Source: Candidatus Latescibacterota bacterium
GTDB taxonomy: Bacteria; JAAXHH01
NCBI GenBank assembly: GCA_012270975.1
Contig: JAAXHH010000034.1
Coordinates: forward strand, 62,001-126,000
Length of the DNA stretch: 64,000 nucleotides
Direction: 5' to 3'
In this document: piece after piece, positions 47,267 through 64,000 of the stretch
Layout: each line of letters begins with the position of its first letter
Position numbering within the stretch: position 1 is the first letter of the stretch
Program-made: the position numbers and the translations under genes
The notes under the pieces: model-generated
Told to the model about the DNA's origin: nothing
Database searches by the model: none
Seen by the model: only the letters and a program-made list of their open reading frames with translations

Positions 47267-48454
47267 TCAGAATTCGACCCCCAGCTGCAGGGTGTATTTG
47301 TTCGTGTTCTCGCCGCTTCCGCCCTCGGCCGTTCCGTACGCTCGGTCGTGAATCCATTCGAATGTGCCGAAGAGCGTGTCGTTCCAGAGGTCAACCGTAA
47401 TGACGGTGAAGTAACGTAGCGCCGGTATGCCGAGTCCCACCGCCTCGGAGGTACCCTGGTACCCCAGCGCGAATTCCGCGCTCCTTCCCGCCAGTTCAGA
47501 CCCGTAGCCGGCTTCGAGAGACCAAGCGGATGGGTGGGCGCCCCGGTTATCGAACGCCAGCACGCCAGGAGCGAATCGACCCTGGGAGATCATGTATTCG
47601 GCGTCGAATGCGATACCGCTGTAGTGAATGGCGGTAGCCACTGACCATCCAGGTATCCGTTCATCGCTGTCAACGGTTGGTCCGCCGTGGCTCGCGTCGT
47701 CCGGCTCGCCTCGGTGTTCGAAGACTTCTTCCTGAAAACCGGCCAGTGTGCCCAGGTCATCAATAAACGACACGTTGAAGGCGATTTCGTCTTCTTCGGA
47801 CAGGTGCTTTTTGAAACCCATCGCGGCGCCGAAACCGGACCGGGGTTCATCCGAGCGCGCATCGTCTCCATAATACCCGTAGACGCTACCCAGGAACTGG
47901 CCCAGGGAGACGCCCAGCAACAGGGACTTTTCCCTTTTGGATCCGAACTCGAACGACAGCGGGTCGACAATCGCATGGGTCTCGAAGGGACCGATACTGG
48001 CATCGTGCGCCGCGTGGACTTCGGCCAGCTCGAACATGGTGAAGGGAAGGAATTGCACACCGCCCTTAAGCCACCATCTGCCCTCGGGCGGTCCGACGAT
48101 GATCGTACCGGTAAAGATCCCCAGGTCGTGACCTTCCGCCTCTTCATCGTGGTCTTCTTCGTGCTCGTGAATCCATCCGAACTCAGATCCAATCCATGCA
48201 TGGGGCTCGATGCCGATGCCCATTTCCAACTGTTCGGCCGCCGTGGACGTGGAGGTTTCCCCTCCGGATGATTGTTTGCGCGATACGGTAAACTCCGCCA
48301 CCCCGCCGATTTCAATAAACCTGAGCAATGACTCCGCACCGGACTGCTCATTGGCTTCCTGCCCGGACACGTCCTGCGCCGCGGCCGGATGCGTCCGGAT
48401 GACCGCCATGAGCGCCACGGCCATCACCGCGAGGATTCTGTCGTATCGTTTCAT
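47267..48454 (-). CDS. LbtU-family outer membrane siderophore porin-like protein
   Basis: 395 residues from ATG at 48454; a TTG seven codons upstream is less likely. Signal peptide, then a 16- to 18-strand-type barrel with aromatic-rich girdles and a C-terminal Phe (LQLGVEF). The overall layout, and segments such as ADDARSDEP and LGVSLGQFLGSVYGYYGD, match the LbtU family, known in Legionella for legiobactin uptake. A loop is His/acidic rich (HEHEEDHDEEAEGHD), similar in style to the lipoprotein at 2625. The promoter carries a DtxR/MntR-like operator, supporting metal control. Not TonB-dependent. Confidence 0.8.
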   Translation of the reverse strand: MKRYDRILAVMAVALMAVIRTHPAAAQDVSGQEANEQSGAESLLRFIEIGGVAEFTVSRKQSSGGETSTSTAAEQLEMGIGIEPHAWIGSEFGWIHEHEEDHDEEAEGHDLGIFTGTIIVGPPEGRWWLKGGVQFLPFTMFELAEVHAAHDASIGPFETHAIVDPLSFEFGSKREKSLLLGVSLGQFLGSVYGYYGDDARSDEPRSGFGAAMGFKKHLSEEDEIAFNVSFIDDLGTLAGFQEEVFEHRGEPDDASHGGPTVDSDERIPGWSVATAIHYSGIAFDAEYMISQGRFAPGVLAFDNRGAHPSAWSLEAGYGSELAGRSAEFALGYQGTSEAVGLGIPALRYFTVITVDLWNDTLFGTFEWIHDRAYGTAEGGSGENTNKYTLQLGVEF

Positions 48455-48486
48455 ACGGGTGTTTCTCTTTCGCAAAAACTCACAAA

Positions 48487-49093: not shown

Positions 49094-50146
49094 ATGTCAA
49101 TATCTAAGGGATTGGAAGACCGTACGAGACCGTACGAGACCATGACACATGAAATCACCATAGGCCCGCACCGCATCACGTCGCTCAGGCCCGGCATGCC
49201 GATCCTCACGCTGGCGCCCATGGCGGGCATCAGCAACTGGCCCTTCCGGTTGATCTGCGCGAGAATGGGGGCGCAGATGGTCGGCGTGGAGTTCATCAAC
49301 TGCAACGCCATTCTCCACCGGAACCCGAAGACGCTGCAGATGATGAATTTCTGCGACGCCGACATCTACCGCGATACCGGCATGTCGCTCCTCGCCGCCC
49401 AGATCTACGGAAATGACATCGGCCGCATGGTGGAAGGCGCGCTGGTCCTGGAGGAAAAAGGCGCGCAGATCATGGACATCAACTTCGGGTGCTCCGTGCC
49501 CAAGATCCTGCGTTCCGACTCCGGCGCCGCCTTCCTCAAGGACATCGACCGGATGATGAACGCGGTGCGCAGCGTGGCCGACGCCGTCTCGATTCCCGTC
49601 ATCATCAAGACGCGGCTGGGCTGGGACAACGACAACATCAGCATCCTGGAGGTGGTGAAACGCGCCGCGGATTCCGGCGCCCACGCCGTGGCGGTGCACG
49701 CCCGCACCGTGGCGCAGAAGTTCAACGGGACCGCCGACTGGTCCTGGATCGCCCGGGCCGTGGAGGTCTCCCCTGTGCCGATCTTCGGCAACGGGGACGT
49801 GTTCACCTTCCAGGACGCGGTGCGCATGGTCAGGGAGACCGGTTGCGCCGGGGTGATGATCGCCCGGGCGGCCCGGGACAATCCCTACATCTTCTCCGGC
49901 GACGTGTCGCCCACGTTCTCCGACCGGGTCAGGCTCGCCCGGGACCACCTGGGCATGATGGTGGAGTACAAGGGGGAGAAGGTCGGCGTGATGGAAATGC
50001 GCAAGTTCTTCGCCTCCTACTTCAAGGGCTTCCCCAACGCATCCCACCTGAGGACCAGCCTCGTGCAGGTGGACACCGTCACGCAGGCCCACCGGATTCT
50101 GGACGAGTGGGTGGCTGATTCGGATCGTCGGCCGCATGATGCTTGA
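49094..50146 (+). CDS. dusB: tRNA-dihydrouridine synthase (DusB-type)
   Basis: 350 residues from ATG at 49094 (GGGGG eight bases before); ATG at 49142 (MTHEITIG) is an alternative that lines up better with typical Dus starts. FMN enzyme with LAPMAGISNWPFRLICARMG, NFGCSVPKI (catalytic Cys in the Dus motif), VIIKTRLGWD and VAVHARTVAQKFNG. Reduces uridines in tRNA D-loops. A duplicated ten-base motif, GACCGTACGA, lies at 49119-49141. Its last 68 bases overlap antisense with the end of phoU. Confidence 0.92.
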   Translation: MSISKGLEDRTRPYETMTHEITIGPHRITSLRPGMPILTLAPMAGISNWPFRLICARMGAQMVGVEFINCNAILHRNPKTLQMMNFCDADIYRDTGMSLLAAQIYGNDIGRMVEGALVLEEKGAQIMDINFGCSVPKILRSDSGAAFLKDIDRMMNAVRSVADAVSIPVIIKTRLGWDNDNISILEVVKRAADSGAHAVAVHARTVAQKFNGTADWSWIARAVEVSPVPIFGNGDVFTFQDAVRMVRETGCAGVMIARAARDNPYIFSGDVSPTFSDRVRLARDHLGMMVEYKGEKVGVMEMRKFFASYFKGFPNASHLRTSLVQVDTVTQAHRILDEWVADSDRRPHDA

Positions 50147-50783
50147 TCACGCGTCCTTCTGAAAAATACACCACGCCCTCGGCGATGTTCGTGGCGTGGT
50201 CGGCGAGCCGTTCGATGTGGCGGGATATGAAGATCAACTGCATCGCCTGGGGCACCGACCCGGAATCCTCCGTCATGCAGGTCAGCAGTTCCTGGTAGAT
50301 CTGGTCCTGCAGTTGGTTGACCTCTTCGTCCCTGGCACAGACATCCATGGCCAGTTGTTCGTCTCCGCGTACAAATGCGTTGAGGCTGTCCTTGACCATG
50401 GACTGGGACAGATCGGCCATGCGGGGCAGGTCGATGAGCGGTTTCAGTTGCGGCATGCCGGCGAGCTGTTTCGTTTTCTTGGCGATGTTTACCGCGATGT
50501 CGCCCATGCGCTCCAGGTCGATGGTGATCTTCATGCTGGATGCAACGAAGCGAAGGTCCCGCGCAATCGGGTGCTGAAGGGCCAGCAGCCGGATGCACTG
50601 GTCGTCGATTTCCAGCTCCATGGCGTCTATGGGCTGATCTCCGCCGATGACCAGTTCGCACAGCGCAATGTCGCGCTCCACGTGCGCCGTGATCGACCGG
50701 GCGATCTGTTCCTCCACGAGCGCCGCCATGCTCAGCAGGGCGGATTTCAGGCTTTCCAACTGCTGTTGAAGGTGGGTTTCCAT
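50079..50783 (-). CDS. phoU: Phosphate transport accessory regulator PhoU
   Basis: 234 residues, two PhoU helical repeats with the metal-binding motifs ERMGDIAVNIAKKTKQ and ERLADHATNIAEGVV (E-x-x-x-D). PhoU links the Pst transporter to the PhoR kinase and damps Pho signalling when phosphate is ample. Last gene of the minus-strand Pho operon. The C-terminal tail after VVYF (about 25 residues) is the part that overlaps dusB; it is poorly conserved and Pro-rich. Confidence 0.95.
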   Translation of the reverse strand: METHLQQQLESLKSALLSMAALVEEQIARSITAHVERDIALCELVIGGDQPIDAMELEIDDQCIRLLALQHPIARDLRFVASSMKITIDLERMGDIAVNIAKKTKQLAGMPQLKPLIDLPRMADLSQSMVKDSLNAFVRGDEQLAMDVCARDEEVNQLQDQIYQELLTCMTEDSGSVPQAMQLIFISRHIERLADHATNIAEGVVYFSEGRVIKHHAADDPNQPPTRPESGGPA

Positions 50784-50803: not shown

Positions 50804-50894
50804 GGACGCAGCGCTATCCGGCGCGGCCCACATCGTTATCTGGAGATTCGGGACGCAGCGTTATCCAGGACGCAACGCTATCCGGCGCGGCCCG
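50804..50894. repeat. Duplicated pstB tail between pstB and phoU
   Basis: Copies of a 26-base unit, GGACGCAGCGCTATCCGGCG and onward, at 50804-50829 and 50868-50894 (one base different), with a partial 16-base copy at 50851-50866. The right copy includes the last four sense codons and the stop of pstB. This is the same pattern as the 35-bp repeat after the GT9 gene at 15924. Confidence 0.8.
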
Positions 50895-51675
50895 TGATGT
50901 AGTCCTCCGTGCGCTGGTCCCGGGGCGTGGTGAACAGCACGTCGGTCACGCCCGTCTCCACCAGTTCGCCCATGAGCAGGAATCCGGTGCAGTCCGACAC
51001 GCGAGCGGCCTGCTGCATGTTATGGGTCACGATAACAATGGTATAATCGTTCTTCAGATCAAGCATTAATTCCTCGATCCTGGACGTGGCGACGGGGTCC
51101 AGCGACGAGCACGGTTCGTCCATGAGCAGGACTTCCGGTTCGACCGCGATCGCCCGCGCGATACAGAGCCGCTGCTGCTGTCCGAGAGAGAGCCCCAGGG
51201 CGCTTTCCTCGAGCTGTTCCTGGACCTCTTCCCAAAGAAAGGCCCGGCGCAGACACCGTTCCACGATCTCGTCGAGGAAACCGCCGGACTTCACGCCATG
51301 GATCCGGGGACCATAGGCCACGTTCTCGTAGATCGACTTGGGGAAGGGGTTCGGCTGTTGGAATACCATGCCCACGCGCCGGCGCAGCCGCGTAACGTCG
51401 GTGTCCGGGGCGTAGATGTCGGCCCCGTTTATCCGTATCGTACCCGTCAGGCGGGTCTGGGGAACGAGGTCGTTCATGCGGTTGATCAACCTGAGCAGGG
51501 TCGTCTTGCCGCAGCCTGAAGGTCCGATAAAGGCCGTGATGACCTGGCGATCGATCGCCATGGTCACGTCCTTCAGCGCGGCCCGGTCGCCGTACCAGAA
51601 GGACACGTTCTCGACATCGATGATCGTTTCTTCACGCAGGATCTTCGGCGTGACCGGCGCGTTTTCCGTCGTCAT
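50878..51675 (-). CDS. pstB: Phosphate ABC transporter ATP-binding protein PstB
   Basis: 265 residues. Walker [18 protein letters not shown], Walker [13 protein letters not shown], His in [28 protein letters not shown] and [20 protein letters not shown] are PstB hallmarks. The signature reads [14 protein letters not shown], with Leu where PstB normally has Gly (LSGGQ). Powers high-affinity phosphate import with PstC and PstA. Lies 73 bases after pstA. Confidence 0.95.
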
Positions 51676-51748: not shown

Positions 51749-53176
51749 CTATGCCGCTGCCAGCGAATAGCGTCTCCTCAGCCGGCTTCTGAGTCCTATT
51801 GCCGCCGCGTTCAAAGCGACCACGATGGCCAGCAGCAACAGGGTGGAAGTGTACGCCATGGGTAGAGACGCTTCTCCCCCGTCCGGCCTGAAACCCGTAT
51901 CGAAGATGTGAAACCCCAGGTGCATGAACTCTCGTTCCAGGTGCACGAAAGGCCAGGCGCCATCCACTGGCAACTCGGCGGAAAAGGCGACGACCCCGGT
52001 GATCATCAACGGCGCCACGGTACCGGCCGCCCGCGCAACGGACAGGATCAGGCCCGTGAGAATGGACGGCAATACCACGGGCAGGATGACTCGCCAGAGC
52101 GTCTCGAACCGGGTCGCCCCCAGGGCGTGGGATGCTTCGCTGAGTTCCCGGGGCACTCCGGCCAGCCCTTCCTCCACGGCCACGATGACCACGGGCAGGG
52201 TGAGCAGGGCCAGGGTCAGCGAGCACCAGAGGATGCCGCCCCGGCCGAAAGTCGGTTCCGGCAGATCCCCCGGGAAGAACAGACGGTCCAGGGTCCCTCC
52301 CAGAAAATACACGAAGAAACCGAGTCCGAAAACCCCGAATACGATGGAGGGAACCCCGGCCAGGCTGTTTACTGCGATACGCACCCCGTTCAGAAGCGGA
52401 CCCGGTCTTCCGTACTCTCTCAGGTAGAAGGCCGCGAGAACGCCGAAGGGCATGACGACGATCGACATGAGGATGACCATCGCCGCCGTGCCGAAAACCG
52501 CCGGGTAGACCCCGCCGAGCCGGTTTTCGTCCCTCGGAGGCGTCCACAGGTAGGACCAGGCGCCACCCATATAGTGACGGATCCTCGTCCACGTAGTCAT
52601 CGCATTGGGTGCGTAGATTCGCTGGACGTCCGCGAGGGAAACGGCGTGCAGCCGGCCATCCGCCGAAGACAGGACGATGGACTGCGCCCGCTGTCGTCGC
52701 AGGCGTTCCAGCTCCGGATTCCGCTCCTGGTAGTGTGCCCGAACGGCTTCGTAACCCCGGGCGACGACCGTACCGTCGTCCACGAACGAATCCAGGAATC
52801 CAAACAGGTCCCCGCCCCGATCCTGCCCCACGACCACGGCTTCGCTGGGGGTATCCCGCCCCGCGATCCGGCCTTCCTCCAGCCAGACGTAATCTAGAGG
52901 ATACCGTTCCCGGTTCCCGGTCCGGACCCGCAATCGATACGCTACGGATCGCTCTCCCGAGGAGTCGGTGGTCCGGACGCTTGTACGGGAAGTCTCGTGG
53001 CCCAGGACAACCCGTCCGTCGCGCAGCACGTACCGGGTCAGTTCCTTGGGCCAGAACAGGCCCAGTCCGTGCACGACGATCACCAGGATCAATCCCGCCA
53101 CCATCAGGAGCCCGAGGACCAGGGCCCCGCCGGACAGCCAGATCAGGGCGTCATCCCTTGACCACTTCGAATCCAT
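51749..53176 (-). CDS. pstA: Phosphate ABC transporter permease PstA, long form
   Basis: 475 residues. After a first helix (LVLGLLMVAGLILVIVV) comes an about 160-residue extracytoplasmic region (to around residue 205) not found in the short E. coli-type PstA, then the usual permease core with VEEGLAGVPRELSEASHALGATRFETL, the EAA coupling motif, near residue 330. Similar long forms occur in some marine gammaproteobacteria. Pairs with PstC. The extra domain could help receive substrate, which matters because no PstS gene is present here. Confidence 0.92.
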   Translation of the reverse strand: MDSKWSRDDALIWLSGGALVLGLLMVAGLILVIVVHGLGLFWPKELTRYVLRDGRVVLGHETSRTSVRTTDSSGERSVAYRLRVRTGNRERYPLDYVWLEEGRIAGRDTPSEAVVVGQDRGGDLFGFLDSFVDDGTVVARGYEAVRAHYQERNPELERLRRQRAQSIVLSSADGRLHAVSLADVQRIYAPNAMTTWTRIRHYMGGAWSYLWTPPRDENRLGGVYPAVFGTAAMVILMSIVVMPFGVLAAFYLREYGRPGPLLNGVRIAVNSLAGVPSIVFGVFGLGFFVYFLGGTLDRLFFPGDLPEPTFGRGGILWCSLTLALLTLPVVIVAVEEGLAGVPRELSEASHALGATRFETLWRVILPVVLPSILTGLILSVARAAGTVAPLMITGVVAFSAELPVDGAWPFVHLEREFMHLGFHIFDTGFRPDGGEASLPMAYTSTLLLLAIVVALNAAAIGLRSRLRRRYSLAAA

Positions 53177-53211: not shown

Positions 53212-54342
53212 TTAAGCATATCGCCGTCTCAGCCGTCGTCTGACCAGTTCGGCCACGGTATTAATCGCAAAAGTCGAAACGAGGAGAAGAAAGGCGGCGA
53301 AAAACAGGACCCGGTAGAGACTGTCGCCCCGCGCGGCGTCCGGCAGGTCGAGGGCCACGCTGGCGGACAGGGCCCTGAACCCGGAGAAGGCGGACCAGTC
53401 CATCACCGGGACATTGCCCGAGATAAACAGCACGATCATGGTCTCTCCGATCGCCCGGCTCAACCCCAGCAGGACGGCGGCCAGTATGCCGGCGCCCGCG
53501 GCGGGGAGGACGATGCGCACGGCGGTCTGCCAGCGCGTGGCCCCCAGTGACATGGAACCTTCCAGGTAGGAGCGGGGCACGGCGGAAAGCGCTTCCTCGG
53601 ACAGGGTGAATATGATCGGGGCCACGGCCAGGCCCATGACCATGCCGACGACGATCGCGTTCCGCTCGGCGTAGGTCAGTCCCAGGGATTCTTCGAACCA
53701 GGTTTCGTAGCCGGCCCGCAGCCAGGCGGCCTCCAGCAAAGCCCCGCATTCCAGGGCCAGCCATCCCCCGGCCAGTACGGCCGCCAGAAGCAGCCAGATC
53801 TCCCGGCCCGGAGGACTAAACACCCGGAACCGGACCGGCGCCAGATGCCTGACCACAAAAGCGGCCGCCACGGCGCCTGAAATGAACACCGGCGCCAAGA
53901 ACAGGGCGAAGACGTGGGAAGCCAGGAACGGCGCGAGCCAGACGCCGCCGATAAAACCGAGCACGACACTCGGCACGGCGGCCGTGACTTCCACCAGGGG
54001 TTTCAGTCTTTCCTTCAGTGCCCGCGGCAGGAACTGCGACGCGTAGAGCGCGGCGAGCACCGAAACGGGCACCGCGAAAAGCAGGGCGTACACCGCGCCT
54101 TTCAAGGTCCCGAAGATCAGCGGCAGGATGGGGTAACCGGGTTCGATTCCCTCGGGACCGGAGATCCCCCAGTCGTATTCCGCGGGCGACGTGAACAAAG
54201 GGTAGATCACCCACAGTATCACGGCAAAGACCGACAGGATGGTCAGGATCAACACCATGCCGCAAAGGGCTGCGAGCCGGCCAACCAACAAGTCCAGCAG
54301 ACGGCGCCGGTCAATCCGCCATCCTCGGGCGCGATCGGTCAT
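53212..54342 (-). CDS. pstC: Phosphate ABC transporter permease PstC
   Basis: 376 residues, about seven membrane helices. The coupling motif is LSEEALSAVPRSYLEGSMSL followed by GATRWQTA. A mid-protein segment between helices (LLEAAWLRAGYETWFEESLG) is unusually long and probably faces the periplasm. PstC and PstA form the inner-membrane channel. Lies 56 bases downstream of the secreted protein gene, without a PstS gene between. Confidence 0.92.
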   Translation of the reverse strand: MTDRARGWRIDRRRLLDLLVGRLAALCGMVLILTILSVFAVILWVIYPLFTSPAEYDWGISGPEGIEPGYPILPLIFGTLKGAVYALLFAVPVSVLAALYASQFLPRALKERLKPLVEVTAAVPSVVLGFIGGVWLAPFLASHVFALFLAPVFISGAVAAAFVVRHLAPVRFRVFSPPGREIWLLLAAVLAGGWLALECGALLEAAWLRAGYETWFEESLGLTYAERNAIVVGMVMGLAVAPIIFTLSEEALSAVPRSYLEGSMSLGATRWQTAVRIVLPAAGAGILAAVLLGLSRAIGETMIVLFISGNVPVMDWSAFSGFRALSASVALDLPDAARGDSLYRVLFFAAFLLLVSTFAINTVAELVRRRLRRRYA

Positions 54343-54398: not shown

Positions 54399-56126
54399 TC
54401 ACTTCAGCAGCGTCATCTTCCTGTTGAAAACGTGGGCGGTCCGTCCATCCGCCGTAGCCTCGAAACGGTAGAAGTACACGCCGCTCGAAAGGTGCTGCGC
54501 GTCCCAGCTCTCCACGTAATTCCCCGGAAGCCTGGTATCGTTCACGACGGTAGCCACCCGCTGGCCCAGGAGGTTGTACACCTCAATCAGTATGTGGCTC
54601 GTAGACGATACCGTGTACCCGATATTCGTGGTCATGCCAAAGGGATTCGGACTGTTCTGCGCCAGGCTGAACGCGCCGGGCACCCCTTCTTCCGGTACCA
54701 CGGGCTCCGGCGGCACGGGTGGCGGGGCGGTGCTGAAATAGCCCAGGCCCGCGAGCGCCGACCAGTTCGCCGCCCAGTTTTCCGTACCGAAAGCGCCCGC
54801 GTAATCGACGTCCTTAAAGAAGCCGCTGCCCCGGGGCTCTTCCATGAGCATGCCCGCGTCCCAGGCGGGACTGTCGTTGCCTGGCCGCGGATCGAGACCC
54901 CGGTTCCGGTTCCAGCTGATGCCCTGCAGCATCGGGTCCGCGATCCGGATCATGTTCGACGCTTCGGCAAGCAACGCCGCCGAGTGAGCGTCGCCTCCCA
55001 GGTCATTGGCCGTGCCGCCCGCGCCGAAGGCGCCCAGGATGTTGTACCGGAACGCCAGGTCGCCCGCGTCCAGACGCGCCCTGCTGTCCTGCGCCCCCCG
55101 GGTCGGGTCCAGGTCTTCGATCGAAAGCATGTGTCCCTGGAACTCGGTGAAGATGCTGTTGAAATACATCCCGCCCGCGTTGTCCCGGAAGATGATGCCG
55201 TTGTTCGCCTTGTCGCCCGTCGAGGACGCGCCCCGGCCGATGTAGGTGGCGTTCATGATCGTGGGACTGGCGTACGGCCTGCCGTCCTCGGGGTCCGTGC
55301 CGCCATCGTGCTCGCCGGCGTGGTCGCCCAGGGACGGGTCCTGGATCGAGAACCAGAACTGGTGTTCGCCCCGGAAGCCCTCGTCGTAATCGAAGCTGTC
55401 ATCGCCCGCGAAAGCGGAGATCAGGTAGCGCGTGTTCACTGTGCCGCCGAACCACTCGAAGCCGTCGTCCTGGTTGTAGAACACCTCCACGTGCTCGATG
55501 GTCGTGCCGCGGCCCACGCCGCCCATGGTCAGTCCGTTGATCTCGTTATTGGCGCCGATGTCCGTACCGCCGTGACGAATCGATACGTACCGGAACACGC
55601 CCGAATTATCGTCATCGTTCGGGTTCCTGCCGCCGCCGTATATACCCCGCGGCTCGGTACTGGCATCAATACCCTCGACGTTGCCCTCGCCCGTGGCCGT
55701 GTTGATGGACGCCCGGCCCAGGATGATGACGCCGCCCCACAGGCCTCGGGAGGCAGTAGGCGACGACAGCAGGATGTCGTTCGGATCGTTGACGTCGTCC
55801 GCTTCGGCCGTGAAGATGACTGGATTCCTGGCGTTACCGTCCGCGAAAATCTTGCCGCCCCGCGCCACGATCAGGGCCGAAACGTCACCTGTTGTCCCCG
55901 ACGCCCTGCCCTTGATGACGGTACCCGCTTCGATGGAAAGCGTCTCGCCGTCTTCGACGAAGACCAAGCCGGACAGCAGGTAGGTGTTGTCCGAGGTAAA
56001 GGATGTATTACCAACGATATCTGCGTCGGTGATCGTTACTAAGGGATTGGAGGTTGACTGTGCTTCTGCGAGGACTGGAACGATGAAAGGAACTGCTGCT
56101 AAGGCGACGGATATCCACCGAAACAT
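54399..56126 (-). CDS. Secreted protein with T9SS-type C-terminal domain, in the Pho operon
   Basis: 575 residues. Signal peptide (cleavage after AEAQ), then a repeat-rich, probably beta-helical body with many Gly/Asp/Asn turns (SGVFRYVSIRHGGTDIG, TTIEHVEVFYNQDDGFEW, NNGIIFRDNAGGMYF). The last about 85 residues, from SLAQNSPNPFGMTTNIGY to FNRKMTLLK, are a type IX secretion/FlgD-Ig-like tail. Strong AAGGAGGGGG before the ATG. It lies between the TonB receptor and pstC. A surface protein helping to capture or free phosphate from ligands is plausible; enzymatic residues are not evident. Confidence 0.85.
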   Translation of the reverse strand: MFRWISVALAAVPFIVPVLAEAQSTSNPLVTITDADIVGNTSFTSDNTYLLSGLVFVEDGETLSIEAGTVIKGRASGTTGDVSALIVARGGKIFADGNARNPVIFTAEADDVNDPNDILLSSPTASRGLWGGVIILGRASINTATGEGNVEGIDASTEPRGIYGGGRNPNDDDNSGVFRYVSIRHGGTDIGANNEINGLTMGGVGRGTTIEHVEVFYNQDDGFEWFGGTVNTRYLISAFAGDDSFDYDEGFRGEHQFWFSIQDPSLGDHAGEHDGGTDPEDGRPYASPTIMNATYIGRGASSTGDKANNGIIFRDNAGGMYFNSIFTEFQGHMLSIEDLDPTRGAQDSRARLDAGDLAFRYNILGAFGAGGTANDLGGDAHSAALLAEASNMIRIADPMLQGISWNRNRGLDPRPGNDSPAWDAGMLMEEPRGSGFFKDVDYAGAFGTENWAANWSALAGLGYFSTAPPPVPPEPVVPEEGVPGAFSLAQNSPNPFGMTTNIGYTVSSTSHILIEVYNLLGQRVATVVNDTRLPGNYVESWDAQHLSSGVYFYRFEATADGRTAHVFNRKMTLLK

Positions 56127-56207: not shown

Positions 56208-59150
56208 CTATATCCCGTACGAGAAACCGATGGAGAACGTCCGCCCTCTCTTGTAAAGACTGCGGATGAACTCCTCGTTGTTGTACGGATGCACCTTCTT
56301 GATGTCTGGATCGAGGAGGTTCCTGGCGGAGAATTTCAGCGTTACGCGATCCCACAGACGTTGCGATCCCGTGATATCGAGCATGCCCGCGGGCTGCTCG
56401 AAGGCGTTGGGCGTCCCGCCCGTACTCACTTCGGAAAGCCTTTCGCCAAAGACATTGTAATGGACGCTCACCAGGGTACCGGTATCCGTGTTGTCGTACA
56501 TGGCATCGATGTTGACTACGTAGGGAGACTGGCCCTGCAGCTTGCGGGTCTCCGCCGCACCGGGATCGAGCGCCCGGATGATGGCGAGTTCCGACGGCGC
56601 GATATCCACCTGGGACCTGACCAGGGACAGGTTGCCGCCGACCTGGAAGTTGCCCAGGGACGGATGGAGCTGGTCGAGCCGCTTCCGGTATTCCAGTTCC
56701 AACCCGGTGACAAGCGCCCTGTCGACATTCTGAAACTGGATTTCACCGTTCGTCGTCACGATTACGCGCTCGATCGGGTTCTCGAACTTCTTGTAGAAAT
56801 AACTGATCGCATAGATCTCGCCGGGACGGTTGAACCATTCCCAGCGGAAATCGTAGTTGTCGATCAGCGTCCGCTTAAGCTCGCTGTTACCCACGAAGAC
56901 GTAGTCGCCGACGAAGAGGAAAGAGGCGAATGGGGCCAGTTCGCGAAAGGAAGGCCGCGCCAGGGTCCGGCTGTAGGCGCCCCGGACATTCATGTTATCC
57001 ACGACCTGGTACACCGTGTTGATCGAGGGCAGCCAATCCTTCTCGTCCAGTTTGCCGGGCGTCAGCGAGGTTTCATGGCTGGCCACGTCCAGCAGGGTGG
57101 ACTCGTACCGGGCGCCGCCCGTGACCTTGAACCGCCTGGTGAGCGGCAGGTCCAGCATCAGGTAACCGGCCCGAACCTCCTGGTCGCCGTCGTAGTTGTT
57201 CTTCAGGTCCGAGTCCTCGGATACGAAATTCCCGAACCGTGTAAACCCGGGTGTATCCTGCATTTCACCGGGCAGGATGCCGGTGCGCGCCGAGGAGAAG
57301 AAGACCGCCGGGTCGTTTCGGTACAGCAGGTTGTCCTGCCGGAAGGAGAAACGCCGCTCGCGGAAAGTGTGCTCCTTGTCCAGGTAGGCGCCGCCGAATT
57401 TCAGCCGGGCCGTGAGTCCGGACCACTGCGAGAAAGGCAGCGTCACGTCCAGCCTGAAGTCCCGGTTGGATTCTTCCAGGTTCCTGAAGTACCGGGTCGG
57501 CGCCGCGTAATTGGACAGGGCGATCGTGTAGCTGTCGATGTCCGGTGCTCCTTCGCCGGCCGCGTCGACCGTCTGGAATTCATTGGTGAAGTACCGCAGA
57601 TCCGGCTCGTCCTGGTTCGACCTGATGAATGCGCCGGTCCATTCGATTTCCATGTTGGATACGGACGGCAGTACGTGCTTGCCGCGGAATTGCAGGGACT
57701 GCATCTCGCGCTCGATGAAGGACAGCACGCGGGTCTCGTACCGCACGTTGTCGCCAGGCAGGGAGGAGGGCCAGACCCCCGTCTGGAACCTGGACGCCTT
57801 CTCGCCACTGCGGTTGTAGAGCAGGTTGGCGCCGATTTCGTGGGTGATGCTTGGCTGGTAGGTGGCATTCACCAAGCTGCCCCAGAGTACCTCCTCGGAA
57901 CCGCTCATGTCCGTCGCAAAACGCTCGCGGTTCAGCCCTTCGGATTCCCGGGACACGCGCTTCCATATCCCCGATGCGCCATTGTCGTACGCCGAGATGT
58001 TCCGGCTGTAGCTCACGCTGCCCAGCATCCCGAACGGACGGTCCGCGATCTCCGTCTGGTTGCCTACCGAAAAAGAATAGCTCTGGCCAAGGCCGCCTTC
58101 TACGGTGGTCGGCGTCATCGTCTTGTCGGCAAACGACTTGGAATACAGGTCCAGCAACTGAGCGGCTTCCGGGTCACGGAGCGCGCTGGTGATGCTGGGA
58201 ATCTCCACGTCGGGATTCCGCAGGGGCAGCGGGATATCCCGGGTGCCGTCGTCGAAGCCCAGGAAGTCGTATTCGCCGCCGTCGTAGCTCAGCATCTCCT
58301 TGAAGGAAGACTGGGAATTGTACTTCGTGGACGTGGAGAAGGACATGGTGAAGGATTCGGGAAGCGACTTGGTCTTCACGTTGACGCTGCCGCCGGTGAA
58401 GTTGCCGGGCTTGTCCGGCGTGAAGGTCTTTTCCGTGGTAATGTTGTCCAGGAGGTTCGTCGCGAAGATATCCATCTGGACCGACTTGCCGTTGGGATCG
58501 GCGCTCGGCAGGGAAGTGCCGTTCAGCTGCGCGGTACTGTACCGTTCGCCCAATCCGCGGATGTAGACGTATTTTCCGTCCACCACCGAGGCGCCCGTGA
58601 CGCGGGTCATGGCCGCCGCCACGTCGCCCTGTCCGCCACGGGAGATATCCTCGGCGCTGATGGCGTCGCTGATGGAGAGGGCGTTCTGGCGGCGCTTGAG
58701 CAACGCCGCTTCCGTGTTTTCCAGGGCCCGGGCCGTCACTTCCACCACGTCCGCCACGAGAAGCTCCTGCTCGACGGTGATGTCTATTCTGCTCACCTGG
58801 CCGGGGTTGACCTGAATCTCGGTAACCCGCTTCCGTGCATATCCGATCATGGATACCATGACCGTGTGCCGGCCGGCGGGAACGTTACGGATGAGGTAGG
58901 TGCCTTCGAGGTCCGCCATTGCACCCAGTGCCTGACCTTCAACCATCACCGTGGCGCCGATCAGGGGTTCGCCCGTCTCGGCGTCGACGACCGTACCCGA
59001 TATGCGGCCTGCAGACTGTTGGGCGCCGACTTCTGTGGACGAGCCCAGCAGGACCGCGGCCGCGATCACCGCGGCGAGCATTGATCTGATCATCCATCCC
59101 GGTTCGCTCTTCGGGATTCGGTCACTGCAAAACAGGCGGACCTTCCTCAT
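56208..59150 (-). CDS. TonB-dependent receptor, first gene of the Pho operon
   Basis: About 980 residues from ATG at 59150 (AGGGAGA upstream). The open frame runs to an ATG at 59237, but that lies about five bases from the predicted transcription start, so it is rejected; ATG 59093 is another option. After the leader come a carboxypeptidase-regulatory-like domain (ISGTVVDAETGEPLIGATV), plug (SVQMDIFATNLLDNITTEK) and barrel ending FSIGFSYGI. Pho boxes in the promoter show that phosphate starvation drives it, so its substrate is probably a phosphorus compound: phosphate ester, polyphosphate fragment or nucleotide. Confidence 0.9.
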   Translation of the reverse strand: MRKVRLFCSDRIPKSEPGWMIRSMLAAVIAAAVLLGSSTEVGAQQSAGRISGTVVDAETGEPLIGATVMVEGQALGAMADLEGTYLIRNVPAGRHTVMVSMIGYARKRVTEIQVNPGQVSRIDITVEQELLVADVVEVTARALENTEAALLKRRQNALSISDAISAEDISRGGQGDVAAAMTRVTGASVVDGKYVYIRGLGERYSTAQLNGTSLPSADPNGKSVQMDIFATNLLDNITTEKTFTPDKPGNFTGGSVNVKTKSLPESFTMSFSTSTKYNSQSSFKEMLSYDGGEYDFLGFDDGTRDIPLPLRNPDVEIPSITSALRDPEAAQLLDLYSKSFADKTMTPTTVEGGLGQSYSFSVGNQTEIADRPFGMLGSVSYSRNISAYDNGASGIWKRVSRESEGLNRERFATDMSGSEEVLWGSLVNATYQPSITHEIGANLLYNRSGEKASRFQTGVWPSSLPGDNVRYETRVLSFIEREMQSLQFRGKHVLPSVSNMEIEWTGAFIRSNQDEPDLRYFTNEFQTVDAAGEGAPDIDSYTIALSNYAAPTRYFRNLEESNRDFRLDVTLPFSQWSGLTARLKFGGAYLDKEHTFRERRFSFRQDNLLYRNDPAVFFSSARTGILPGEMQDTPGFTRFGNFVSEDSDLKNNYDGDQEVRAGYLMLDLPLTRRFKVTGGARYESTLLDVASHETSLTPGKLDEKDWLPSINTVYQVVDNMNVRGAYSRTLARPSFRELAPFASFLFVGDYVFVGNSELKRTLIDNYDFRWEWFNRPGEIYAISYFYKKFENPIERVIVTTNGEIQFQNVDRALVTGLELEYRKRLDQLHPSLGNFQVGGNLSLVRSQVDIAPSELAIIRALDPGAAETRKLQGQSPYVVNIDAMYDNTDTGTLVSVHYNVFGERLSEVSTGGTPNAFEQPAGMLDITGSQRLWDRVTLKFSARNLLDPDIKKVHPYNNEEFIRSLYKRGRTFSIGFSYGI

Positions 59151-59248
59151 GCAGCTTCTCCCTTCGGTTTCTACAATCGACTCCTCTCTCGGGTGCCGTT
59201 TGCGCGATATGCGCGTCTTATGTCGAGTTTGAAACATGGGTCGCCAGT

Positions 59249-59383
59249 ATTATAAGTACGTTATTTGACGATTCTGTTACGAACAGCGCACAAGGCCATG
59301 ACAACGACGTTACTTTTTAATGGCAGAATCCCGGCGCCTTATGATACGCATGCCTGATGACAAAATCATGACGGCGGCATGAC
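59249..59383 (-). promoter_or_regulatory. Phosphate-starvation promoter with two Pho-box arrays
   Basis: Minus strand: perfect TATAAT at 59249-59254 without a good -35. Upstream are six half-sites every 11 bases (starting at 59269, 59280, 59291, 59302, 59313, 59324: GTCAA, GTAAC, GTGCG, GTCAT, GTAAC, GCCAT). A second array of three perfect GTCAT half-sites at 59361, 59372 and 59383 also has 11-base steps. The nearest half-site ends ten bases before the -10, as at PhoB-activated promoters. PhoB-type control of the whole operon follows. Confidence 0.85.
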
Positions 59384-59439: not shown

Positions 59440-59469
59440 TTGACAAAATCGCCTGGCGTCCCGTTTAAT
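59440..59469 (+). promoter_or_regulatory. Promoter of ppk1
   Basis: TTGACA (59440-59445), 18-base spacer, TTTAAT (59464-59469, five of six). The leader to the ATG at 59612 is about 135 bases. No plus-strand Pho-box half-sites in 11-base phase were found next to it, so it may be constitutive. Confidence 0.55.
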
Positions 59470-59611
59470 TGTTACTCGGACCGGGTCGCATGCCCGGTCG
59501 ATCCGGTCCTACCCGGTCCGTCGACATCCGATACAGCTATCGTTGTGCGGTATTGCGCGCATTGTGCCAGTGACACGCCGCAAGGCCGCCTAACTTTCCG
59601 GTGACTTGGTT

Positions 59612-61849
59612 ATGCCTGCCGCAAACGGAAACAACGCCAGGGCCGCCACGGTTCGAACCATCGCCTCGAAGAGAGCCGGCCGCCGGTTTACCCGCAAGCC
59701 CCGGCCGCCCGTGGCGCCGCTGGTGACGAACTACTGGCGTCCGGAGCACTTCTTCAACCGGGAGCTAAGCTGGATGGAATTCAACGCGCGGGTGCTGGAG
59801 GAAGCGCTAGACCCCACCGTTCCCCTGCTGGAACGGGTGAAGTTCCTGGCCATATTCAGCACCAACCTGGACGAATTCTTCATGATCCGCGTCGCCGGCG
59901 TGAAAAGACAGATCGACGCGCAGGTCCAGTCCACGCGTACCGCGGACGGCCTGAGTCCCCGGGAGGTGATGACCGCGCTTTCGGCGAGGATGCACGAACT
60001 GGTCAACAAGCAGCACGGCCTGTTCATCAACGAGATCTTTCCGCAACTCACCGAGCAGGGCATAGACATACTCGAGCCCGAGCAACTCAGCGCTTCGCAG
60101 AAAACCTACCTCGACGAGTACTTCCGGAAGACCATCCTGCCGGTGGTGACCCCGCTGGCGGTGGATCCCGGTCATCCATTCCCCTATCTGGCCAACGGCA
60201 CGCTTTGCCTCGTGGCCGAAATCCGTAAGATCCAGAAGTCCGTTTTCCCCCATACGAACCTCTCGGTCATCCACCTGCCCACCTCGGTCATGCCGCGGTT
60301 CCTTGAACTCCCGTCCGAGAACGGCCGGCAGGCGTTCTTCATGCTGGAGGACGTCATCCAGATGAACCTCGATCTGTTCTACAACGGCTACGAGGTGCTG
60401 AACTGCGCGTCGATTCGCGTGACGCGGGACGCCGACGTGGATTACGTGGAGGAAGGCGCGGAGGACCTGCTCAAGGTAATCGAGGAGGGCATACGTAACC
60501 GGCGCAACGGGGCCGCGGTCCGGCTGCAGTACGACCCGGAGCTGTCTTCGCGCATCCTGGACGTCCTGGTGGATGAGCTGGAACTGGAGCCGGAGGATCT
60601 CTACCCCACGGAAGGCTTCACCGCCTTTTCCGATCTCATCGAGCTGTACGACGCCGTCGACCGGCCCGATCTCATGGACGAACCCTTCCCGCCCCAGCCG
60701 GCGACTTCGTTCGATGGCGCGCCTTCCATCTGGGACGCCATCAAGAAGGACGACATCCTGCTGCACCACCCCTTCCATCAGTTCAACGAGGTGGTCCGTT
60801 TCGTTTCGGAAGCGGCGGAAGACCCCCAGGTACTCGCCATCAAGATGACGCTGTACCGGGTCAGCGCCAATTCGCCCATCACCCGGGCGTTGACGCGGGC
60901 GGCGGAGAACGGCAAGGAAGTATCGGTACTGCTGGAATTGAAGGCCCGGTTCGACGAGGCGGCAAATATCCAGTGGGCCAGACAGTTGGAGGAGGCGGGG
61001 GCCCATGTAATCTACGGCATTCCGGGCATAAAAGTCCACTGCAAGGCCTGCCTGGTCGTGCGACGGGAGGGTGAGGGGATACACCGCTACTGTCACCTGG
61101 GCACGGGGAACTACAACGACAAGACTGCGCGCATCTACGCCGATTTCGGCCTGTTCACGGACAAGGAGGAATTCGGCGAGGACGTAACCCAGTTGTTCAA
61201 CCTGCTGACCGGCTACGCGCTGCCCACGCGCTTTCACTACCTTATCCTCTCACCCACGTCGATGCGGGAGGACATGGTAAAGCGGCTGCGGCGGGAGAGC
61301 GAAAACGCGCGGAACGGACGACCGGCCCTCGTCATCGCGAAGATTAACTCCCTCGTGGATCCGGACATGATCGTGGCCCTGTACCAGGCATCCCAGGCCG
61401 GCGTGCAGATTCAACTGATCATTCGGGGCATATGCTGCCTGAGGCCGGGCATTCCGGGCCTGAGCGAGAACATCAGCGTCATCAGCATCGTCGACCGGTT
61501 TCTGGAACACGTCCGCCTGTTTTATTTCTATAACGATGGGGACCCGGAATATCTGCTTTCCAGCGCGGACTGGATGGACAGGAATCTGAACAGGCGGGTC
61601 GAGATTTCGTTCCCGGTCATTGACCGTGCGCTCCAGGCAGAGCTTTGGGCGTATTTGAAGATACAACTGAAGGACAACGTGAAGGCACGCGAATTACAGT
61701 CGGAAGGAACCTACAGGTACGTGAAGAAAGCGGGAAGGCGTTTACAATCGCAGAGGGAACTGTACGAACTGGCCTGCGAGACGGTCAGGGTAAACGCGGA
61801 GACGAAACGCACCGCGCCTGCCCCGACGGCGTTTACCGCACGGACCTGA
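59612..61849 (+). CDS. ppk1: Polyphosphate kinase 1
   Basis: 745 residues from ATG at 59612 (a TTG at 59606 is an alternative). RELSWMEFNARVLEEA at the N domain; the phosphorylated His lies in GIPGIKVHCKACLVVRRE; the second His in RYCHLGTGNYNDKTARIYAD. ELKARFDEAANIQWARQLEE is the conserved core. Makes polyphosphate from ATP reversibly. Placed beside the Pho operon and PhoR-like kinase, it would store the phosphate imported. A hairpin terminator follows. Confidence 0.95.
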   Translation: MPAANGNNARAATVRTIASKRAGRRFTRKPRPPVAPLVTNYWRPEHFFNRELSWMEFNARVLEEALDPTVPLLERVKFLAIFSTNLDEFFMIRVAGVKRQIDAQVQSTRTADGLSPREVMTALSARMHELVNKQHGLFINEIFPQLTEQGIDILEPEQLSASQKTYLDEYFRKTILPVVTPLAVDPGHPFPYLANGTLCLVAEIRKIQKSVFPHTNLSVIHLPTSVMPRFLELPSENGRQAFFMLEDVIQMNLDLFYNGYEVLNCASIRVTRDADVDYVEEGAEDLLKVIEEGIRNRRNGAAVRLQYDPELSSRILDVLVDELELEPEDLYPTEGFTAFSDLIELYDAVDRPDLMDEPFPPQPATSFDGAPSIWDAIKKDDILLHHPFHQFNEVVRFVSEAAEDPQVLAIKMTLYRVSANSPITRALTRAAENGKEVSVLLELKARFDEAANIQWARQLEEAGAHVIYGIPGIKVHCKACLVVRREGEGIHRYCHLGTGNYNDKTARIYADFGLFTDKEEFGEDVTQLFNLLTGYALPTRFHYLILSPTSMREDMVKRLRRESENARNGRPALVIAKINSLVDPDMIVALYQASQAGVQIQLIIRGICCLRPGIPGLSENISVISIVDRFLEHVRLFYFYNDGDPEYLLSSADWMDRNLNRRVEISFPVIDRALQAELWAYLKIQLKDNVKARELQSEGTYRYVKKAGRRLQSQRELYELACETVRVNAETKRTAPAPTAFTART

Positions 61850-61940: not shown

Positions 61941-62270
61941 CTATCCACCGATACGGGCAGCCGTTCTCTTGATGAGAATGGTCGCGACCCCGGCGTAGAG
62001 GAGCGTGCTCACCGGATCCAGAATCGCATCCACGGCGGGGCCGATGCCCGGGATATTGCTCAGCACGTCCATGCCCGCGGCCGCGCCGACGGCGATGGTA
62101 ACCGCCAGGTAGCCCGTCGCGTCTTCCGCGTCAACCGCCATGTGCGCGTAGAGCAGGCCGAGAACCGCCATCGCCATCATGGTCAGTGCCGAGGAAATCA
62201 GGGCACCGGGGAACAGCCCTTCGATTACCGCCAGAATGACTGCAATGATAATGACTATCCGTGTTGCCAT
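61941..62270 (-). CDS. Small membrane protein, paralogue pair member A
   Basis: 109 residues with about three hydrophobic segments. Shares with its neighbour the core VDAEDATxYLxVTIAVGAAA, a shared D-x-LSxIPxIG segment, then a DAxLDP segment and an RTxxRIxG end. GGAGG is eight bases before the ATG. No enzyme motif is seen; the acidic VDAEDAT may face the membrane surface. Family unknown to me. Confidence 0.8.
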   Translation of the reverse strand: MATRIVIIIAVILAVIEGLFPGALISSALTMMAMAVLGLLYAHMAVDAEDATGYLAVTIAVGAAAGMDVLSNIPGIGPAVDAILDPVSTLLYAGVATILIKRTAARIGG

Positions 62271-62367: not shown

Positions 62368-62697
62368 TCAGCCTTTGATCCGGTTTACCGTGCGAATGAC
62401 CAGAATGGAAGCCACACTGGCATACAGGGCTGAACTGGCCGGATCGAGCATAGCGTCTAGGTAAGTACCGATGGCCGGGATGCTGCTCAACGCGTCCGCT
62501 CCCGCCGCGGCACCGACGGCAATGGTCACGACGAGATAATCGGTAGCGTCCTCCGCGTCGACTCCCGTGATACCATAGACGACACCCAGAATGACAATCA
62601 GTATCATCATCACCCCGCCATCGTCCATCATGCCACCCGCTAAGCCCTGAATAATCGCCAAGAGGGCGATCACTAAAACTATTACTCGGTTCAGCAT
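62368..62697 (-). CDS. Small membrane protein, paralogue pair member B
   Basis: 109 residues, clearly paralogous to the downstream gene along its whole length, most strongly in VDAEDATDYLVVTIAVGAAA and the IPAIGTYLDAMLDPAS region. The N-terminal hydrophobic segment differs (MLNRVIVLVIALLAIIQGLA). GGAGG lies before the ATG; part of it can pair in a small hairpin (CTCC-UCUA-GGAG). Gap to member A is 97 bases. Tandem duplication with retained core suggests two subunits of one membrane complex. Confidence 0.8.
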   Translation of the reverse strand: MLNRVIVLVIALLAIIQGLAGGMMDDGGVMMILIVILGVVYGITGVDAEDATDYLVVTIAVGAAAGADALSSIPAIGTYLDAMLDPASSALYASVASILVIRTVNRIKG

Positions 62698-63114: not shown

Positions 63115-64000
63115 TCAAGTCATTCCACCCGTTGAAGTTCCGGCGACTGCCTCGCGGTCCGATCGGGGCTGGTCCTCCGATTCGCCCGCCGCCTTCTCTT
63201 CCGACCAGACGGGGAGCGAAAGGAAGAAGCTCGCGCCTTCGCCGACCCGGCTTTCGACCCAGGCCCGGCCATTCAGCAGTTCCATGGTATGGCGGACGAT
63301 CGCGAGGCCGAGGCCGGTTCCCCCCAGCGCCCTCGATCGCGCGCGGTCCACCCGGAAGAATCGTTCGAAGATCCGCGGCAGGGCGTCAGACGGAATACCG
63401 GGACCCGTATCGGCTACGGACAGGACGATTTCGTCGCCCCGTTCCGCGATGCTTACGGTGATCGATCCGCCGTCCTCGGTATACTTGACGGCGTTGTCGA
63501 CCAGGTTGGTGAGCGCCCGCTCCATCAATGCGGCGTTGCCGCGCGCCGGCCTTTCCGTCTCGAACCTGAGGGCAAACTTCAGATGCTTGCGGGCGATCTG
63601 CTCCGCGAATCCCTCCGCGACCCGTTCGGACACCCGGTCGAGGCGACAGGCCGCGATTTCGACCTCGTACTGTCCGGATTCGATCCGGGAGAGTTGGAGG
63701 AGATCCTCGACCAGCGCCTGTAACCGGTCGGTATGGTGCAATATGGAGTTGACGAACCGGCGCAACGCGGTCGTATCGTCCATCGCGCCGTCCAGCAGGG
63801 TCTCGACATAGCCCTTGATGGAGGTCAGGGGGGTCCTGAGCTCGTGGGAGACGTTGGCCACGAAGTCCTTCCGAACCTGCTCGAGGTGCCGCAGTTCGGT
63901 CATGTCGTGGAACACGGCGACCACGCCGTGAAGCTGCTTACCGATGCGTACGGGCGTGAGATGCACCTGGAAGATGCGCTGGCTCCACTCCAGCGCCAGG
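63115..64000 (-). CDS. phoR: PhoR-like sensor histidine kinase (5' end beyond the window)
   Basis: About 295 C-terminal residues are visible; the frame is open to the right edge. A PAS-like end (EWSQRIFQVHL, VVAVFHDMTELRHLEQVRKD) precedes the phosphoacceptor box FVANVSHELRTPLTSIKGYV. N box LVDNAVKYTEDGGS, then DTGPGIPSDALPRIFERFFR and GGTGLGLAIVRHTMELL make a full HATPase. The PAS end and kinase order match PhoR. Its nearness to ppk1, pst genes and the Pho-box promoter makes phosphate sensing probable. The C-terminal tail (about 25 residues) is acidic and variable. PhoB would be expected upstream of the visible part. Confidence 0.85.
   Translation of the reverse strand, partial: LALEWSQRIFQVHLTPVRIGKQLHGVVAVFHDMTELRHLEQVRKDFVANVSHELRTPLTSIKGYVETLLDGAMDDTTALRRFVNSILHHTDRLQALVEDLLQLSRIESGQYEVEIAACRLDRVSERVAEGFAEQIARKHLKFALRFETERPARGNAALMERALTNLVDNAVKYTEDGGSITVSIAERGDEIVLSVADTGPGIPSDALPRIFERFFRVDRARSRALGGTGLGLAIVRHTMELLNGRAWVESRVGEGASFFLSLPVWSEEKAAGESEDQPRSDREAVAGTSTGGMT

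Follow-up and report, generated by a model that had tools for sequence, protein, structure and literature searches.

Background

The closest described counterparts of the promoters analysed here are those of phoA and pstS in E. coli, in which direct half-sites repeated every 11 bp replace the -35 element and the -10 element follows at a distance of ten bases (GTCAC-N10-TATAGT in phoA, GTCAC-N10-TATTTT in pstS). A CTGTCAT consensus has been stated for E. coli, and multiple Pho boxes have been described at ugp (PMC4415409), so that long operators as such are not new. As regards the genes that may be controlled, Caulobacter produces ElpS (cc0170) under phosphate starvation from a gene that has gspC-N and the TonB receptor gene cc0171 as neighbours; the cc0170/cc0171 pair co-occurs across genomes, and cc0171 is reported to be constitutive on the basis of data not shown in that paper (PMC2996285). 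Various TonB receptors of Caulobacter are described as being under PhoB control (PMC11208175). The PUSIV locus of F. johnsoniae comprises phoR (Fjoh_0543), phoB (Fjoh_0544), a TBDT (Fjoh_0545) and the lipoprotein FII (Fjoh_0546), which is related to the Caulobacter lipoprotein; Fjoh_0545 and Fjoh_0546 are strongly induced by phosphate depletion, and plant-associated Bacteroidetes lack PstSABC according to the same authors (PMC8115612). In B. fragilis, values of +4.10 and +3.78 were reported under phosphate limitation for BF4130 (PstS-like) and BF4134 (ExbB), respectively (PMC3547664), and ppx, ppk and ppk2 were recorded in two genomes of sponge Latescibacterota (PMC12993501). In the open-licence PMC literature, no report of Pho boxes in the lineage studied here was found among the matches listed, nor did a phrase search, judged from titles, return a relevant paper on TonB-driven phosphate transport. 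To our knowledge, the lineage is known from metagenomes only.

The operon and its neighbours

The window, i.e. the whole 64-kb stretch of DNA that was analysed, contains the following genes, together with a sigma70-like promoter recognized by eye:

56208-59150, minus strand: TonB-dependent receptor (likely start ATG 59150, inferred from GGGAG and a signal peptide)
54399-56126, minus strand: secreted ElpS-like protein with a type IX sorting tail (tail domain at the C-terminus)
53212-54342, minus strand: pstC (TIGR02138, above cut-off)
51749-53176, minus strand: pstA (TIGR00974, above cut-off)
50878-51675, minus strand: pstB (TIGR00972, above cut-off)
50079-50783, minus strand: phoU (TIGR02135, above cut-off)
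59440-59469, plus strand: sigma70-like promoter facing ppk (TTGACA 59440-59445, TTTAAT 59464-59469)
59606-61849, plus strand: ppk1, divergent (TIGR03705, above cut-off)
63115-63999, minus strand: PhoR-type histidine kinase, truncated at the window edge (kinase piece below the NCBIfam cut-off)

The genes from the receptor to phoU are probably transcribed as a single unit, and the receptor presumably has a role in transport. Its mechanical reading frame starts at 59237, 12 bases past the -10 element of the promoter described below, and its domains (pf07715, pf13715 and pf14905) are those of the TBDT of PUSIV, which likewise stands beside a secreted protein (there a lipoprotein of the pectin-lyase superfamily) and phoBR (PMC8115612). 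As in the Caulobacter elpS-cc0171 locus, the receptor gene adjoins the gene of a secreted protein, here a member of an ElpS-like family. The proposed likeness to ElpS and Fjoh_0546 is based on published descriptions and on conserved gene order among homologues: Indioceanicola and Sphingomonas possess homologues of the secreted protein in the order ElpS-like protein - TonB receptor - gsp genes, which is the order described for Caulobacter (PMC2996285). The N-terminal signal of the protein encoded at 54399-56126 contains no cysteine that could form a lipobox, and as it ends in a type IX tail, we call it ElpS-like rather than ElpS. Thus, unlike the Caulobacter locus, with its neighbouring type II system, and unlike PUSIV, with its lipoprotein, the locus described here combines a type IX-tailed protein with pstCAB-phoU in the same operon. 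No pstS was found between the receptor gene and phoU; two PstS-like proteins are encoded elsewhere in the genome. With regard to a possible beta-helix (pectin-lyase-like) fold, the structural model of the secreted protein shows many short strands (mean pLDDT 77.5), for which Foldseek returned weak matches (best E 5e-5, TM about 0.2), and little was gained from a PDB sequence search with the secreted protein and the receptor.

In two relatives, G001 (L242, L231: C2:5-3673, C3:271100-276124) and G009 (L241, L232: C158:4-2514, C14:1-1995), the secreted protein appears as a long frame with tandem ElpS-like domains of ~440 aa, the matches being 57-87% identical to the window protein and the last copy carrying the type IX tail; these frames reach contig ends, and the pieces presumably form one gene. 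Two adjacent, similar membrane proteins of 109 aa (61941-62270 and 62368-62697, minus strand) are encoded between ppk and phoR and match no Pfam family above its cut-off. Downstream of the pst operon lies a gene for an LbtU-family porin (47267-48475, minus strand), a relative of which occupies the equivalent place in G004 and, in part, in G006.

Two predicted promoters upstream of the receptor gene

The 368-bp intergenic region contains the following elements (half-site positions refer to the 5' base on the minus strand):

59265-59302, minus strand: P1 core, GTCAT 59302, GTGCG 59291, GTAAC 59280, GTCAA 59269 (blocks 0.91-0.99 conserved, 12/12 genus genomes)
59309-59324, minus strand: outer half-sites in P1 phase, GCCAT 59324 and GTAAC 59313 (not conserved)
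59249-59254, minus strand: P1 -10 element, TATAAT (TATAAT in 9/12, TATATT in 3/12 genomes)
59357-59383, minus strand: P2 half-sites, GTCAT at 59383, 59372 and 59361 in 11-bp steps (in 5/12 genomes)
59341-59346, minus strand: P2 -10 element, TATCAT (ten bases past the last GTCAT, 59361-59357)

The preliminary description had regarded these nine half-sites as Pho boxes in two phased arrays, with a TATAAT element ten bases beyond the proximal one. All nine are indeed present and non-random, the six proximal ones follow each other in steps of exactly 11 bases, 11 bp is the spacing that yields them, and TATAAT starts ten bases past the end of GTCAA 59269. Both arrays show the hallmarks of a PhoB-activated promoter, namely head-to-tail TGTCA-like half-sites in 11-bp steps and, without a -35 element, a -10 element ten bases past the last of them. 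However, the idea of one long operator did not survive the comparison with relatives, since only four of the six proximal steps are kept and the distal three belong to a second promoter. We therefore reject a single nine-site operator on the grounds of genus conservation, of the strict-pattern matches and of P2 preceding another gene in two relatives (see below). As the distal array has a -10 element of its own, the most plausible reading is that of two distinct PhoB-type promoters, P1 and P2, 92 bp apart and both reading leftwards. Compared to E. coli phoA and pstS, two complete promoters would thus stand in tandem, of which P2 is apparently left from a lost gene, and the P1 core includes the weak half-sites GTAAC and GTGCG.

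Half-sites were scored with weights of our own, based on the E. coli consensus. In a weight-matrix scan of the window, the top arrays of two, three, four and six steps all fall here, at 11-bp spacing; those of three, four and six steps score 30.4, 33.1 and 29.6 bits, compared with at most 19.3, 20.1 and 15.6 bits at other spacings (8 to 15). When one strand was resampled 60 times with an order-1 Markov model, the six-step maximum was 10.3 bits, and among 2000 resamples of the intergenic region none matched the observed three-, four- or six-step score. One further candidate, GTCAA at 59444, was discarded as an extra half-site because it is the complement of TTGACA in front of ppk.

Conservation in the genus

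In a gap-free alignment of 12 genus genomes anchored on the P1 core, conservation values of 0.91 to 0.99 are reached by four blocks, GTCAT 59302 being the first and that of GTCAA 59269 the last, and 0.84 by the -10 block, compared with 0.50 to 0.63 for the flanking blocks. Hence the phased repeats that the preliminary description expected upstream of orthologous operons occur in all 12 genomes. The outer GCCAT and GTAAC are found together in the window only; G011 has GCCGT and GTAAC, G009 and G005 retain GCCAT without GTAAC, and the other genomes have one outer half-site or none. The six phased steps are genuine in the genome studied, and four of them constitute the conserved part.

The strict pattern GTMA-N7-GTCA-N11-TATNWT, allowed no mismatches, was found 29 times in the same 12 genomes (that of the window included), as opposed to one match of the reversed control. 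All 29 matches can be accounted for: 12 correspond to P1 (one per genome), 12 to a promoter of a PorV-type gene, and five to P2. Carriers of P2 are the genome of the window (G000), G011, G001, G009 and G005, each with three half-sites and with the ten-base distance to the -10 element preserved.

The distance between P2 and P1 varies among the carriers. It amounts to 676 bp in G009 and 668 bp in G005, where a reading frame of 161 aa (orfX; L221, L222) lies between the two promoters, to 200 bp in G001, where the gap resembles both ends of the orfX stretch with the middle gone, and to 95 bp in G011. The orfX protein, which has no Pfam match, was found in two of the 12 genus genomes and not in the other ten, that of the window included, all figures referring to draft assemblies. 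Owing to the absence of orfX from the genome of the window, P2 looks orphaned there. From the five genomes we infer that orfX was lost and its promoter left behind, rather than that the gene was gained.

The probable regulator and other predicted promoters of this class

The preliminary description placed a PhoB gene next to the kinase, and such a gene does adjoin the PhoR kinase gene, just outside the window. The best NCBIfam match of its product is TIGR02154 (PhoB), with 253 of the 296 bits required and hence below the cut-off; like PhoR, it is assigned with a model score under the curated threshold. The protein shares 44% identity with E. coli PhoB and keeps R193, T194, D196, H198, R201 and R203, with R200 replaced by K; the residues kept belong to the recognition helix and have a role in DNA contact.

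Another promoter resembling P1 (G000:C108:38736-38778; TTCAT-GTCAT-GTCAT-N10-TATCTT) precedes a PorV-family gene, L170 (G000:C108:38855-39844), and is conserved in the genus. The PorV-type site lies on the contig of the PorV match, 54-174 bases upstream of it, in 11 of the 12 genomes; G005 is the exception, with the site at the end of a contig other than that of the PorV match. This PorV is perhaps a dedicated export partner for the type IX-tailed secreted protein.

A further operon of the same genome (L035:1339-7522, G000:C107) encodes a protein of 141 aa, a PstS-like protein, a TPR protein, ExbB, two ExbD and TonB. Five phased half-sites lie upstream of it in G000, similar ones in G004, and fewer or weaker ones in G009; in the remaining seven of the ten genomes that could be read (the contig of G011 is too short, and the gene was not found in G005) there is no phased array, only a sigma70-like promoter. 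Being phased in three genomes and absent in seven, this array was rejected as a member of the core regulon.

Distant relatives of the receptor and the secreted protein

A search of 77 genomes with the receptor yielded near-full-length orthologues in the 12 genus genomes (in G005 divided between two contigs) and relatives of about 50% identity in two far genomes, G024 and G060. In the four genomes from other genera of the same taxonomic order, the secreted-protein matches, among those listed, span the type IX tail only. The order in G024 is phoB-phoR-regulator-receptor-secreted protein-porin-pstS-pstC-pstA-pstB-phoU, the porin scoring slightly below the Porin_O_P cut-off.

Scanning named genomes yielded 78 loci, eight of which belong to close relatives named Latescibacterota or Gemmatimonadetes. 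Among the remaining 70, a relative of the secreted protein is present in 37, and the DNA retrieved includes a phoB, phoR, phoU or pst gene in 35 (both in 28, the secreted protein only in nine, Pho genes only in seven, neither in 26). The titles of 25 of the 26 loci with neither carry names of genera that we take to belong to the Chitinophagales. An Alteromonas plasmid encodes, in succession, phoB, phoR, a phosphate-binding protein, an oxygenase, an ElpS-like protein, the TonB receptor, DUF3450, two ExbB-family proteins, ExbD, TonB and a TPR protein; the match on a Marinobacter plasmid has no such neighbours.

Upstream regions were taken from 76 of the loci, leaving out beforehand genes whose match starts less than 150 bases from the locus start; a region was discarded if it had a 30-base word in common with one already retained, which left 86 of the 114 regions. 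A half-site pair of at least 14 bits, by the same weights as above, occurs at 11-bp spacing in 11 of the 86, compared to none or one at each of seven other spacings and to 11 of 1506 random stretches of the same loci (Fisher p 3e-9, to be read as a guide, as the sequences are related). The random stretches give 0 to 12 of 1506 at the other spacings, so that 11 bp is not special in them. On the opposite strand, seven of these 86 regions likewise reach 14 bits at 11 bp, so that the orientation is not exclusive and any claim for it is weakened. No such pair was detected in 75 of the 86 regions.

Interpretation

We consider it very likely that P1 and P2 are PhoB-activated promoters, that P1 serves the operon receptor-ElpS-like protein-pstCAB-phoU, that P2 is orphaned, and that a third promoter of the same class stands at the PorV-like gene. 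Phosphorylated PhoB would bind head-to-tail to the 11-bp half-sites, substituting for the -35 element, and would recruit RNA polymerase to the -10 element exactly ten bases further on. P1 would thereby drive the genes from the TonB receptor through the secreted protein to pstC-pstA-pstB-phoU; P2 would once have served orfX and would now read straight into P1, and the third promoter would drive the unlinked PorV-like gene. Binding of PhoB to P1 and P2 and induction at low phosphate are predictions of this reading; for the receptor and the secreted protein, induction is predicted from P1 only. The half-sites, the -10 element and their conservation support the placement, already proposed in the preliminary description, of a PhoB-type promoter ahead of these genes.

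An origin by chance or by base composition has a negligible probability and is refuted by the conservation in 12 genomes. It could appeal to the half-sites GTGCG and GCCAT, which are weak when taken singly, and to a looser pattern (three GTCAT steps, at most three mismatches) with 51 matches in the genome of the window versus 30 for the control, the weak matches being mostly noise; against it stand the scores relative to the resamples and the excess of strict matches. The distal array is the sole perfect match to the looser pattern in that genome. The notion that the distal array consists of upstream PhoB sites that strengthen P1, its own -10 element being unused, is unlikely. The 92 bp between the arrays in the window contain no gene, and ugp provides a precedent for multiple Pho boxes (PMC4415409), but the ten-base -10 element is retained in all five P2 genomes, P2 precedes another gene far upstream of P1 in G009 and G005, and the 37 bases from 59361 to 59324 put the arrays out of a common 11-bp register. 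Several regulators of the OmpR family bind direct repeats, the genome encodes 13 response-regulator domains and its PhoB falls below the model cut-off; still, we regard it as very improbable that another member of this family uses the repeats, given the GTCAT-type half-sites, the phoA-like -10 distance, the pst genes that follow, the phoB and phoR genes adjacent to the operon and the recognition-helix residues kept.

What the receptor imports is a separate matter from the nature of the promoters. There is about an even chance that, with the promoters as proposed, it takes up organic phosphorus compounds, and that Pst transports only the phosphate released from them. For the low-phosphate TBDTs of Caulobacter and Flavobacterium, such a function has been put forward (PMC11208175, PMC8115612), but no phosphatase or phosphodiesterase was recognized between the receptor gene and phoU, with enzymes encoded elsewhere being possible, and the operon links the receptor directly to Pst. 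The alternative that the receptor and the ElpS-like protein carry out a TonB-powered capture of inorganic phosphate, or of a metal-phosphate complex, and hand it to Pst is tentative and rather unlikely. If true, phosphate would be actively imported across the outer membrane by a widespread system under PhoB control, which in certain lineages would have its own ExbB-ExbD-TonB beside a PstS, as on the Alteromonas plasmid and in the PstS-TPR-ExbB-ExbD-ExbD-TonB operon of the genome studied here.

Implications

The switch itself, a canonical and conserved pair of predicted PhoB promoters, is of a well-known type. What is new is the lineage, the type IX-tailed version of the secreted protein sharing an operon with pstCAB-phoU, and the predicted co-regulation of PorV. 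The analysis provides a promoter-level prediction of the PhoB regulon for this lineage, with one match of the reversed control against 29. Under phosphate starvation, the cells would jointly produce an outer-membrane receptor, its secreted partner, probably the export partner of the latter, and the inner-membrane phosphate pump. P2, in turn, would be a legible example of a regulated promoter that has seemingly outlived its gene.

The preliminary description held that the functions of the receptor and the secreted protein could not be known from sequence alone. This is not supported, as their relatives in Caulobacter and Flavobacterium had already been linked to phosphate starvation (PMC2996285, PMC8115612), so that their role could be guessed in part, and many distant loci also show the pair next to phoB, phoR or pst genes. 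ElpS/FII-type proteins and their TonB receptors are an abundant and unexplained component of phosphate-starvation responses, and both their neighbourhood in distant genomes and the operon shared with Pst strengthen the link to phosphate uptake. Conservation of the promoter ties a widespread, little-studied pair of a receptor and a secreted protein to phosphate uptake.
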